From assembly GCA_003697135.1 (NCBI GenBank), contig RFGC01000025.1:1-64000 (forward strand): DNA of 64,000 bases. Direction: 5' to 3'. The notes beneath the pieces are model-generated. The model was not told where the DNA came from. It saw only the letters and a list, made by a program, of their open reading frames with translations, and did no database searches. Source of the DNA: Acidobacteriota bacterium (GTDB lineage Bacteria; Acidobacteriota; Blastocatellia; Pyrinomonadales; Pyrinomonadaceae). The position numbers and the translations under genes were made by a program. Positions 57,472-61,645 of the stretch are shown piece after piece; within the stretch, counting starts at the first letter, position 1, and every line of letters begins with the position of its first letter.

Positions 57472-58470
57472 TTAGTTATTCAGCTTCAGATCGTCACTAA
57501 TCGCTCTGTATTCTGTTTTAGTTCGGATTTTGTATTTGTCCGCCTTTTCTTTATCGGCGAGGCGGACTTCGATTTTACGTTTCCTACCGTCAAGCTCTTG
57601 ATTACGTGGGCGGTAGGTGATTATGTATTGGGAGCGAAGTTCTTCGGAAATTCTTTTGAAAGCTCTTTCCAGAGCGAGCATGTCGCCGATGTAAAGGGCT
57701 TCACCGCCAGTTTCGCGGCATAGCCTATCGAGAATTTTATCGCCTTCATCTTTGACTGTGCCTGCTTCAACTCCCGGAACAGTGCCTAGAATTCCAGCTT
57801 TTGTTGATATTGCGAAGATAGTGGTTTCGGTTCGTTGTGCTATGTCAATTACGTCTTCAAGTTCGGCGCGGCTAAATGTATCGTCGCCATCAGTTATAAC
57901 TACAATCACTCTTCTACCGGGAACGGTTCTGAGTTTCTCGTCACAGAAAAACCATATTGCATCGTAGAGCGCTGTTTGAGTGCCGGTTTTTTTCACGCTA
58001 TCAACAGCTCTGTCCAAAAGATCGAGTTTGTCGGTGAAATCTTGTATCAGGTTCAGTTCGTGATCGAAGGTCATGAAAGCGGCTTTGTCTTTACGTAGCC
58101 TTGTAACCGTGTATATGAAATTTTTTGCCGCTTCTTTTGAAAATTTCAGTTTCCCGGCAGTTGAAGGCGATGTGTCCATCAAAACCCCAACATAAACCGG
58201 CGGATTTGTCTTTTCGTCTGAGAAAAACGTTATCTCCTGTTGAACGCCATCTTCAAAAACCAAAAAATCATCCTTTGTTAAGCCTGAAACCAGATTTTTC
58301 TTTTTGTCTCTAACGGTTACCGGGAGTTTGACCTCGAAAACCTTGATTTGACCAACGTCCCTTTCTTGTTGTGGCGGAGTAGGTCTCGGATTTTGTGCTG
58401 AAATTGCCACAACACAACAGAAAACAGAGATTAACAGTCTCAAGGCTGTTTTTGCAGAGATATATTTCAT
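57472..58470 (-). CDS. VWFA-domain secreted protein (acidobacterial type), copy 1
   Basis: 332 residues from ATG 58470, giving a clean signal peptide (TALRLLISVFCCVVAISAQ); ATG 58506 adds 12 residues. Same layout as its neighbour: FEDGVQQEITFFSDEK, VWFA with DTSPSTAGK and TDGDDTFSRAE, end SQYIITYRPRNQELDG. Sixty bases upstream of copy 2 and probably co-transcribed. Divergent from ileS. Confidence 0.85.
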   Translation of the reverse strand: MKYISAKTALRLLISVFCCVVAISAQNPRPTPPQQERDVGQIKVFEVKLPVTVRDKKKNLVSGLTKDDFLVFEDGVQQEITFFSDEKTNPPVYVGVLMDTSPSTAGKLKFSKEAAKNFIYTVTRLRKDKAAFMTFDHELNLIQDFTDKLDLLDRAVDSVKKTGTQTALYDAIWFFCDEKLRTVPGRRVIVVITDGDDTFSRAELEDVIDIAQRTETTIFAISTKAGILGTVPGVEAGTVKDEGDKILDRLCRETGGEALYIGDMLALERAFKRISEELRSQYIITYRPRNQELDGRKRKIEVRLADKEKADKYKIRTKTEYRAISDDLKLNN

Positions 58471-58616
58471 GAAAGATTCAATCTTTTCAAATTTGCTCAA
58501 AAACATAGTTGGCTTTGCCGATGAATCATGAACTTCTGATGTTTGTTACTTGATGGTTGTTGTCCAAGCCAAATTATATCAAAGAGAAAAAGATGCGCTG
58601 AAAGAGGCAAAATGTT

Positions 58617-58646
58617 TTGCTATTGTGATGGTTTTTAAGTTATTAT
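58617..58646 (+). promoter_or_regulatory. Probable promoter of the ileS leader
   Basis: TTGCTA (58617-58622) and TATTAT (58641-58646) are 18 bases apart. The predicted start of transcription falls on or beside the leader-peptide ATG (58652). A second candidate TTGATG-N18-TTATAT lies at 58550-58579. Confidence 0.45.
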
Positions 58647-58651
58647 GAATC

Positions 58652-58702
58652 ATGATGCTTTCGGCATCTGCAATAATTATTATTTTGCTCAAAAGTCGGT
58701 AG
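58652..58702 (+). CDS. Isoleucine-rich leader peptide of ileS
   Basis: Sixteen codons and a stop: MMLSASAIIIILLKSR. Residues 8-11 are four consecutive isoleucines (ATA ATT ATT ATT, 58673-58684), followed by two leucines. The peptide stops inside the left arm of the first leader hairpin, and an intrinsic terminator follows. This is the layout of a translation-sensing attenuator. There is no Shine-Dalgarno sequence; the -10 box ends 5 bases before the first ATG, so a leaderless start is plausible. A second ATG is adjacent. Function inferred. Confidence 0.65.
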   Translation: MMLSASAIIIILLKSR

Positions 58703-58764
58703 AATGGCTCTTAGGAAGCCTTCTGCCGATGAAGTCCTAAATCCGATTGATTTAGGACTTTTTT
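58696..58764 (+). terminator. ileS transcription attenuator: competing hairpins and terminator
   Basis: Arm 1 TCGGTAGAA+GGCT (58696-58709) pairs with arm 2 AGCC+TTCTGCCGA (58717-58729). The terminator is a perfect 12-bp stem AAGTCCTAAATC (58732-58743) with GATTTAGGACTT (58749-58760), then T-rich sequence to 58764. TTAGGA (58711-58716) plus CTT (58720-58722) can pair with AAGTCCTAA of the left terminator arm, giving an antiterminator that excludes the terminator. All lie between the promoter and the ileS start, with the gene upstream pointing away, so the terminator can only act on ileS. Confidence 0.7.
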
Positions 58765-58789
58765 ATTTAGACTGAATCAAGGAGTGAGT

Positions 58790-61645
58790 ATGGAACAAAA
58801 GCTGGACTTGAAAAAGACGGTCAACCTTCCGAAAACAAATTTCCCACAGAAAGCGAATCTTACGCAATCGGAGCCGCAAAGGCTGGAAAAATGGAAACAG
58901 ATGAAGCTATATGAAAAAATTTTGTATGAACGCAAAGATGCTCCGAAGTTCATATTGCACGATGGCCCGCCTTACGCAAATGCCGATATTCATATTGGCA
59001 CGGCTTTGAACAAGATTTTGAAAGATTTTGTAGTGAAGTCACGCACGATGATGGGATTTCAAGCTCCGTTCGTGCCGGGTTACGACTGCCATGGATTACC
59101 GATTGAAAACTATGTTGAAAGAAAACTCAAACAGCAAGGAAAGGATAGATCGGAAATTCCCGTTAACGAGTTTAGACGGATCTGCCGTGAACATGCTTCA
59201 ACGGCGATGAATAACCAAACGCGTGACTTTCAGCGGCTTGGAGTTTTCGGTGAGTGGGAAAATCCTTACCTAACAATGTCGGCTGAATACGAAGCCGAAA
59301 CAGCGCGCCTTTTCGGAAAATTTGTCGAGAAAGGATATGTTTATCGTGGTTTAAGGCCAGTTTATTGGGATGTTTACGATCAAACGGCTTTGGCGGAAGC
59401 TGAAGTAGAATATCGGGAAATCGTAAGTCCTTCGGTTTACGTTAAGTTTCCGCTGAAATCAAATCCTGAACTGATTGATGAACGCCTGAAAGGCAAGAGG
59501 GTTTTTCTGGTAATCTGGACAACAACACCTTGGACCTTGCCCGGAAATCTTGGAATTTCAGTCAATCCTGCTTTTGATTATTCTGCGGTCGAGGTTGATG
59601 ACGAAGTTTATGTTATTGCTACCGAACTTGTTCAACAGGTTGCAGAAAAATGCGGATTTGCTGAGAAGATGAAAGAAATTGCGCGTTTTAAGGGCGAGAA
59701 GCTCGAAAACTTAAAATGTAAACACGCATGGCTCGAAAGAGAATCACTCGTAATGTGCGGTGAGCATGTGACTTTAGGAGAAAGTGATGAAGAAGGAGCA
59801 GTTAAAACTGATGGGAAGGCTGGAACAGGGCTTGTTCACACTGCGCCCGGTCATGGAACGGAAGATTTTTACATAGCCCAGCGTTACGGATTGCCGATTT
59901 ATTGTCCTGTTGATAATGCAGGTCGGTTTACTTCTGATGTTGAGCATTTTGCAGGCGAGTTTGTTTTCAAGGCGAATCCGAAAATAATCGAATTCATGCG
60001 CGAAAGAGGCGTTTTGCTTCATGCTGAAGAGTATCTTCATCGCTACCCGCACGGATGGCGTTCACATAAACCTGTGATATTCCGTGCAACTCCACAGTGG
60101 TTTATTTCGATGGATGCTGGCAATGAAGAATCGCTGCGCTCGCAGGCATTGAGAGAAATCCAGAAAGTCAAATGGCATCCGTCTTGGGGCGAAGGACGAA
60201 TGTTGAATGTAGTTAAACAGCGTCCTGATTGGTGCATTTCAAGGCAAAGAGTTTGGGGAGTGCCGATTATTGCTTTCCACTGTCAAAATTGCTCTTATAT
60301 CGTGCTTGATCCCAAAATCATCTATCATGTTGCCGACATTTTTGCCAAAGAAACTGCTGACGCCTGGTATAATTGGGAAGCCAAGAAACTTCTTCCTGAA
60401 GGTTTCAAATGTCCGAATTGCGGCGGTGAGAATTTCGCAAAGGAAATGGATATTTTAGATGTGTGGTTCGATTCAGGTTCAAGCTGTGTAGCAGTGTTAG
60501 AAACCAGAGGTGAGACGTTGCATTTTCCTGCTGATGTTTACCTTGAAGGAGGCGATCAATACAGAGGTTGGTTCAACTCTAGCTTGATGTGCGGAATTGC
60601 GGCTAAAAATTCTGCTCCATATAGACAAATCATAACGCATGGTTGGGTTGTTGACGGTGAAGGAAGGAAAATGTCAAAATCGCTTGGAAACGTCGTAAGC
60701 CCAAACGAAGTCGTCAAGCAATCAGGAGCAGAGATATTGCGTCTTTGGGTTTCGGCTGTTGATTACACCGAAGACGTAAGATGTTCAAAGGAAATTCTCG
60801 ATCGCGTCGTTGATACCTACAGAAAATTGAGAAATACGCTTCGGTATGCTTTAGGGAATCTCGATGGTTTCGATCCGCAAAAAGATGCAGTTGACGATTT
60901 GCTTGAGCTTGACCGATGGGCATTGGCGAAGCTTTCCGAAGTCACAAAGAAAGTTTTGAAGGCATACGAGGACTACGATTTTCAGGCAGTTTATCAAACT
61001 CTATACAACTACTGCACTGTGACGCTTTCGGCACAGTATTTTGATATTCTCAAAGACAGGCTTTACACTTCTGCTCCTAAATCTCATGCTCGCAGGTCTG
61101 CTCAAACTGCTCTCTACAAGATCGCAAAAGACCTTTGTTTGCTTCTCGCTCCGATACTGGCGTTTACTGCCGATGAGGCTTGGGAAAATCTTCCAGGCGA
61201 AAAGGCAGAATCTGTTCACATAGCAAGATTTCCTGAAGTTGCCTTCTCAAAAGAAGATGAAGAGTTACTTGAGAGATGGGAGAAGATTTTTGAAATCCGC
61301 AATCTTGTGCTGAAGACTTTGGAAGAAGCCAGAGTCGAAAAACTGATCGGTTCGAGTCTTGAGGCAAAGGTCATTTTATCAGTTAGCAAGGAACTTCATG
61401 AATTCCTGAAGCCTTATTCAGATGACCTAAGATACATTTTTATCGTCTCACAAGTTGAGGTGATAGAATCAGACCATCTCGACAATGCAGAAGTTTCTGT
61501 CGAAGTCAAAAGGGCTGAAGGGCAGAAGTGTGAACGTTGCTGGAATTATTCGGTCAGAGTCGGTGAGTTTGAAAGTTATCCGACGGTATGCGAACGGTGT
61601 TTTGAGGTCTTGAAACAGATGGAAAAGGAAATAGCCGTTGCTTGA
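58790..61645 (+). CDS. ileS: Isoleucyl-tRNA synthetase
   Basis: 951 residues from ATG 58790 with AAGGAG five bases before it. Class-I synthetase: HIGT (HIGH variant, in HIHIGTALNKILKDF-like context, about residue 65), KMSKS in GRKMSKSLGNVVSP, and the editing domain (TTTPWTLPGNLGISV, GTGLVHTAPGHGTEDF). C-terminal zinc finger CERCWNYS and CERCF. Charges tRNA-Ile with isoleucine. Probably controlled by the Ile-codon attenuator upstream. Confidence 0.96.
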   Translation: MEQKLDLKKTVNLPKTNFPQKANLTQSEPQRLEKWKQMKLYEKILYERKDAPKFILHDGPPYANADIHIGTALNKILKDFVVKSRTMMGFQAPFVPGYDCHGLPIENYVERKLKQQGKDRSEIPVNEFRRICREHASTAMNNQTRDFQRLGVFGEWENPYLTMSAEYEAETARLFGKFVEKGYVYRGLRPVYWDVYDQTALAEAEVEYREIVSPSVYVKFPLKSNPELIDERLKGKRVFLVIWTTTPWTLPGNLGISVNPAFDYSAVEVDDEVYVIATELVQQVAEKCGFAEKMKEIARFKGEKLENLKCKHAWLERESLVMCGEHVTLGESDEEGAVKTDGKAGTGLVHTAPGHGTEDFYIAQRYGLPIYCPVDNAGRFTSDVEHFAGEFVFKANPKIIEFMRERGVLLHAEEYLHRYPHGWRSHKPVIFRATPQWFISMDAGNEESLRSQALREIQKVKWHPSWGEGRMLNVVKQRPDWCISRQRVWGVPIIAFHCQNCSYIVLDPKIIYHVADIFAKETADAWYNWEAKKLLPEGFKCPNCGGENFAKEMDILDVWFDSGSSCVAVLETRGETLHFPADVYLEGGDQYRGWFNSSLMCGIAAKNSAPYRQIITHGWVVDGEGRKMSKSLGNVVSPNEVVKQSGAEILRLWVSAVDYTEDVRCSKEILDRVVDTYRKLRNTLRYALGNLDGFDPQKDAVDDLLELDRWALAKLSEVTKKVLKAYEDYDFQAVYQTLYNYCTVTLSAQYFDILKDRLYTSAPKSHARRSAQTALYKIAKDLCLLLAPILAFTADEAWENLPGEKAESVHIARFPEVAFSKEDEELLERWEKIFEIRNLVLKTLEEARVEKLIGSSLEAKVILSVSKELHEFLKPYSDDLRYIFIVSQVEVIESDHLDNAEVSVEVKRAEGQKCERCWNYSVRVGEFESYPTVCERCFEVLKQMEKEIAVA

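Follow-up and report, generated by a model that had tools for sequence, protein, structure and literature searches.

Control of ileS is best known from T-boxes, which govern the gene in Firmicutes and Actinobacteria (PMC1262725; PMC2494555), and leader-peptide control of synthetases is known for few genes, in proteobacteria and Streptomyces. Predictions of classical attenuators exist for Streptomyces trpS and leuS, with pheST as the enterobacterial case (PMC1262725). The attenuators of gammaproteobacterial pheST and of Streptomyces trpS and leuS share with the element described here a leader ORF carrying cognate codons, a terminator before the synthetase gene and a competing antiterminator, but the target here is ileS, with Ile codons, and the predicted antiterminator strand lies within the leader ORF, closes a three-way junction and is accompanied by no consistent protector hairpin. 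The ileS T-box (RF00230) also senses the charging of tRNA(Ile) on behalf of ileS, although by direct tRNA binding, whereas here a codon-reading ribosome would take that part, and no T-box match was obtained. A precedent, as far as its description goes, is the translated small CDS CCNA_03934 of Caulobacter crescentus, called ileS leader in a ribosome-profiling study whose only mention of it, in the part considered here, is as a negative control in the legend of a figure (PMC4117421); the likeness, to a member of a distant phylum, lies in that name as a translated ileS leader. A literature search that left most subscription papers outside its reach found nothing on attenuators in Pyrinomonadaceae or on acidobacterial ileS leaders.

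The window, i.e., the whole 64,000-nucleotide stretch of DNA analysed, belongs to a 2.79-Mb, 97% complete genome of the Pyrinomonadaceae (Acidobacteriota), with one close relative in the same genus (L007). The original prediction described a 16-codon ORF with four consecutive Ile codons, a hairpin and an intrinsic terminator ahead of ileS, and all of these are present in the window, in the following arrangement:

57472-58506, minus strand: acidobacterial VWFA gene, the upstream neighbour of ileS
58507-58789: intergenic stretch between the minus-strand VWFA gene and ileS
58617-58646, plus strand: promoter-like site TTGCTA-18-TATTAT, a consensus match only
58652-58702, plus strand: leader ORF of 16 codons, MMLSASAIIIILLKSR followed by a stop; an Ile-rich ORF occupies the same place in 51 loci of the family
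58655, plus strand: second ATG of the leader ORF, aligning with relatives
58673-58684, plus strand: control codons ATA ATT ATT ATT (four Ile), read from the sequence
58687-58689 with 58733-58735 (terminator 5' arm), plus strand: candidate weak antiterminator extension of 3 pairs, found in the minimum free energy (MFE) fold only
58695-58730, plus strand: 14-bp hairpin (arms 58695-58709 and 58717-58730), termed 1:2 in the original prediction
58700-58702, plus strand: leader stop codon TAG, inside the left arm of the 14-bp hairpin
58711-58716, plus strand: UUAGGA, complementary to UCCUAA at 58735-58740 (2:3 of the original prediction)
58731-58761, plus strand: intrinsic terminator hairpin, conserved and covarying in relatives, with a U-run at 58760-58765
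58779-58784, plus strand: Shine-Dalgarno sequence AAGGAG of ileS, read from the sequence
58790-61645, plus strand: ileS, isoleucine--tRNA ligase of 951 aa with its ATG at 58790 (TIGR00392)

ileS is identified by its TIGR00392 score of 933 bits (cut-off 621). The 14-bp hairpin folds with -20.1 kcal/mol (z -5.6), and the terminator, which had been described as a perfect 12-bp helix, consists of 12 perfect pairs (58732-58743 with 58749-58760) plus the closing G-U, reaching -15.6 kcal/mol (z -6.6) with the U-run directly after the hairpin. The gene upstream of ileS does point away, as had been stated, and because it lies on the minus strand the terminator serves no upstream gene; it is one of two tandem acidobacterial VWFA-domain genes (TIGR03436; 56323-57411 and 57472-58506, both on the minus strand). 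Of 20,000 dinucleotide shuffles, 5 produced an ATG ORF with four successive Ile codons that ended close to the terminator. Promoter-like matches in the upstream region of the window are no commoner than in shuffles; relatives have promoter-like sites at the same place (TTGACT-N16/17-TTGGCATAAA, and TTGCCA-N17-TAAAAT in L007), and since these directly precede the leader ORF, the leader is probably part of the transcript. In the window, transcription may start near 58653, and the mRNA on which the leader is read may be nearly leaderless; from this predicted start to the terminator the transcript would measure about 110 nt. There is a competing frame from the ATG at 58645, but this ATG falls inside the predicted -10 region and would precede the transcription start. 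In the leaders of the genera g1, g9, g27 and others, only some 8-11 nt separate the end of the predicted -10 box from the leader ATG, and many such leaders may also sit on leaderless or nearly leaderless mRNAs.

An alignment of ileS upstream regions from related genomes, the check put forward with the original prediction, found the Ile codons conserved and the helices covarying. The comparison comprised 109 distinct ileS upstream regions from 119 Pyrinomonadaceae genomes, and in 51 of these loci, from 9 of 29 genera, a terminator was preceded by an ATG ORF containing an Ile run, related species not being independent samples in such counts; a 52nd match (L186) was discarded because it proved to be the end of an upstream gene. 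The leader peptides, e.g., MRNKALAIIIINERDSIY, MRFDFNIISIIINRDFAR, MKVFTIIISIIISEDNG and MRRPSPIIGDIIGTAFNLS, vary freely between genera outside the Ile run, and their Ile codons are ATT (109), ATA (45) and ATC (33). When loci were picked blind to isoleucine, solely by a GTCCY-type terminator sequence (n = 53), 43 of them had three or more Ile within five codons, against a mean of 0.67 and a maximum of 5 in shuffles, and no residue besides Ile was enriched at these 53 loci. By these sequence counts, the combination of Ile run and terminator is beyond chance, and its retention across 9 genera strongly supports the proposal of Ile-leader attenuation of ileS. Nothing comparable was found in about 75 ileS upstream regions from outside the family, which gave a single spurious ORF.

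The leader is not universal within the family: 56 loci have a leaderless ileS, that of Pyrinomonas methylaliphatogenes (L041) among them, and some lie within the leader-bearing clade. A tree of IleS N-terminal sequences, rough because it has few columns, shows leader presence to be clustered (8 changes versus 38 when shuffled), all leaders falling in one group of 67 rows, 14 of them leaderless. In G033 (L012) and G082 (L152) the GTCCC terminator is kept and the Ile leader lost, making them candidate stages of attenuator loss. The PSPII group, with 24 leaders chiefly from genus g9, has an almost constant 23-nt segment at the start of the leader ORF (ATGCGGAGGCCATCGCCCATTAT), even at third codon positions, while the rest diverges; no pairing partner that would account for this segment was found in those leaders.

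The competing structure emerged when the RNA was folded from a point past the bases that a ribosome halted at the first Ile codon would cover, up to the terminator loop. In nearly all leader-bearing relatives, the predicted folds pair a GGGAC within the leader ORF (P1) with GUCCC of the terminator 5' arm, and this pairing usually closes two hairpins (P2 and P3) to give a three-way junction, one hairpin of which contains the leader stop codon. Across 47 aligned sequences, 86% of the cells were paired, 16 of 18 pairs had changed on both sides, and the covariation score was 0.342, compared with 0.157 for shuffled and at most 0.102 for slid versions; all five summary measures exceeded all 500 shuffles and all slid versions, in a structural alignment that was fitted to the structure and thus inflates covariation. 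By helix, 98% of the cells were paired in P1, 86% in P2 (with double changes in 8 of 8 pairs) and 75% in P3, and the terminator helix was paired in 99% of its cells in relatives. P1 is mostly invariant, with matched changes in GGGAU:AUCCC (L199) and AGGAC:GUCCU (L008 and L192). In a plain MAFFT alignment of the 24 PSPII-group sequences, all 500 shuffles were again exceeded by the covariation score and by the numbers of paired and of double-change cells, the pair count and pair-type count being less clear (20 and 45 of 500 shuffles); register shifts of GGGAC left part of the P1 cells misaligned there. RNAalifold on the first seed alignment, in which MAFFT had misaligned P2 and P3, gave P1 alone. 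Relatives thus have a covarying antiterminator that takes up the 5' arm of the terminator and excludes the terminator helix.

The placement of this strand is compatible with control by a translating ribosome, whose footprint reaches about 12 nt past the first base of the A-site codon. In 47 of 48 sequences, P1 starts 17-25 nt downstream of the position at which the first Ile codon begins, the single exception (31 nt) being a case in which counting started at an isolated Ile, and the leader stop lies 6-23 nt after the start of P1. With the generally assumed footprint, P1 stays accessible while a ribosome occupies the first Ile codons and is covered by one at the stop. GGGAC occurs in all three reading frames (23, 15 and 10 cases), being read as RD, GT or GL, and because of this, and of the variable peptide outside the Ile run, selection acts on the RNA and the Ile codons, not on a protein.

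We therefore regard a ribosome-mediated transcription attenuator of ileS with an Ile leader peptide as very likely, and from the ORF, the terminator, the covarying junction, the spacing and the specificity for ileS, all read in the sequence, we infer the promoter, the stalling and the direction of control as follows. RNA polymerase would start just upstream of the short ORF with its consecutive Ile codons. When Ile-tRNA(Ile) is scarce, a ribosome would stall on these codons and leave the next stretch of the ORF free, so that GGGAC could pair with GUCCC of the terminator 5' arm and close the three-way junction; the terminator would not form and ileS would be transcribed. With Ile-tRNA plentiful, the ribosome would reach the stop and cover the GGGAC strand and the first hairpin, allowing the terminator to form. 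Very probably, then, more IleS is made when charged isoleucine tRNA runs short. No consistent protector hairpin for the untranslated RNA, as in trp, was found in relatives (24 sequences of the PSPII group), and such a hairpin is not universal among leader-peptide attenuators. A candidate protector pairing of the invariant 5' segment of PSPII-type leaders with the region past the stop was rejected as a general feature, since it beat shuffles in few of 24. Lacking a protector hairpin, untranslated RNA would read through by default, the reverse of trp. On balance we lean toward considering the whole an undescribed ileS-specific RNA element of the Pyrinomonadaceae, in which the deciding strand forms part of the leader ORF, closely follows the Ile codons in whichever frame, and closes the antiterminator as a three-way junction, with that reversed default.

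In the window and its congener L007, whose IleS proteins are 81% identical, the element takes a reduced form, which has lost the second hairpin (P3) and retains the first as a helix of 10-14 bp directly next to the terminator. The 14-bp hairpin of the window corresponds to part of the antiterminator of relatives and shows compensatory changes with respect to L007 (GUCGGUAGGC:GCCUGCCGAC). What remains of P1 in the window is the 3 weak pairs of the MFE fold, at a place where L007 has a different pairing, adding 5 pairs (CCUUU:AAAGG) that invade the terminator base. In these folds the strand invading the terminator is weak or has no clear candidate in this genus, and the window copy may switch less well than the full form. 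The element could even be degenerate here, P1 and P3 having been lost in a reduced genome and the terminator setting a fixed fraction of read-through. The loss of P3 and the near loss of P1 agree with such constitutive behaviour, as do the small genomes of the genus (2.5-2.8 Mb, versus mostly 3-7 Mb in the family) and the position of the window on the IleS tree, nested among nearest relatives that carry the full switch. Nevertheless, both species have kept the terminator, the compensated hairpin and a set of Ile codons in direct or nearly direct succession despite the divergence of their IleS proteins, and we consider degeneration unlikely, if a serious possibility.

The regulatory scheme first proposed for the locus fares worse. 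In that four-region model, hairpin 1:2 acts as a protector, a ribosome stalled for Ile-tRNA covers region 1 (58695-58709) and frees region 2, and UUAGGA of region 2 is the antiterminator strand. Protector-type 1:2 hairpins do occur in classical trp-like leaders, and UUAGGA matches UCCUAA exactly over 6 bp; the complementarity thus stands, but region 2 is not free, as UUAGGA sits in the 7-nt loop of the stable hairpin. A ribosome with Ile1 to Ile4 in its A site reaches only about 58685-58694, and since it does not cover region 1, 1:2 would form and lock UUAGGA in the loop, the opposite of what the model needs; pairing of the loop with 1:2 intact would require a linker of 4-5 nt to span a 14-bp helix. 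Moreover, the 6-bp match is absent in L007, and in relatives the equivalent helix, with the stop codon, belongs to the antiterminator, the switch strand being the leader-ORF segment just past the Ile codons. The model is accordingly improbable. That the ORF, with its hydrophobic residues, is simply a gene for a small protein is very hard to reconcile with a peptide that changes freely between genera outside the Ile run, with GGGAC being read in three frames and with the terminator that follows, and we give it little credence. A T-box or another leader that binds tRNA or a metabolite, as the control of ileS in Firmicutes and Actinobacteria might suggest, is the least credible reading, given a predicted transcript of about 110 nt, Rfam scans in which the window region matched no family and gave no T-box up to E 10, in keeping with the original preference for attenuation, and no Rfam family at gathering score in 12 relatives.

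The preferred attenuator reading also gains from the restriction of the element to ileS. A covariance model trained on a single genus recovers the element in the other genera, and whole-genome searches of the 119 family genomes located the element in 47, always at ileS, the sole other match being an antisense overlap at one of those ileS sites; these matches are largely the model's own training sequences, and the informative part is the absence elsewhere. Among 162 genomes of the class searched whole, the element was likewise found at ileS only, and in Pyrinomonadaceae only. The window copy was not matched by the first covariance model, and a model trained on other genera only gave 58655-58766 as its best match in the 64 kb (20.6 bits, E 0.03). 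It was absent from the weak genome-wide matches of the second model, in a search whose first pass scores only part of the candidates; the best weak match elsewhere in the genome of the window was rejected, lying inside an apparent coding sequence. No leaders were found at valS and leuS of this genome, nor upstream of any of 29 pheS genes.

The genome of the window (G000, 97% complete) yielded no ilvB candidate, no ilvD and no ilvC above cut-off, the ilvC search returning only a 29-bit fragment at C19:107186, and on these searches the organism is a probable Ile/Val/Leu auxotroph; ilvB was also not found at E <= 1e-80 in G001, G006, G014 and G018. Because the genome appears unable to make isoleucine, it may respond to isoleucine supply mainly by sensing, at ileS, the charging of tRNA(Ile). 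Dozens of Acidobacteriota species, at least 50 of them besides this one, share the leader, whose single mini-ORF accommodates the control codons, the switch strand and the stop codon, and the occurrence of full, reduced and lost forms within one family makes attenuator evolution directly testable. Ile-rich leader ORFs with terminators also precede ilvB in several Blastocatellia (L271, L278, L285, L286 and L296), and for that reason ileS is probably not the only gene of the class under leader-peptide attenuation. Viewed by eye, the end of these ORFs with the stop codon is similar to the terminator 3' arm, as it is in the ileS element, although these leaders precede acetolactate synthase and have a weak match, or none, to the ileS model.
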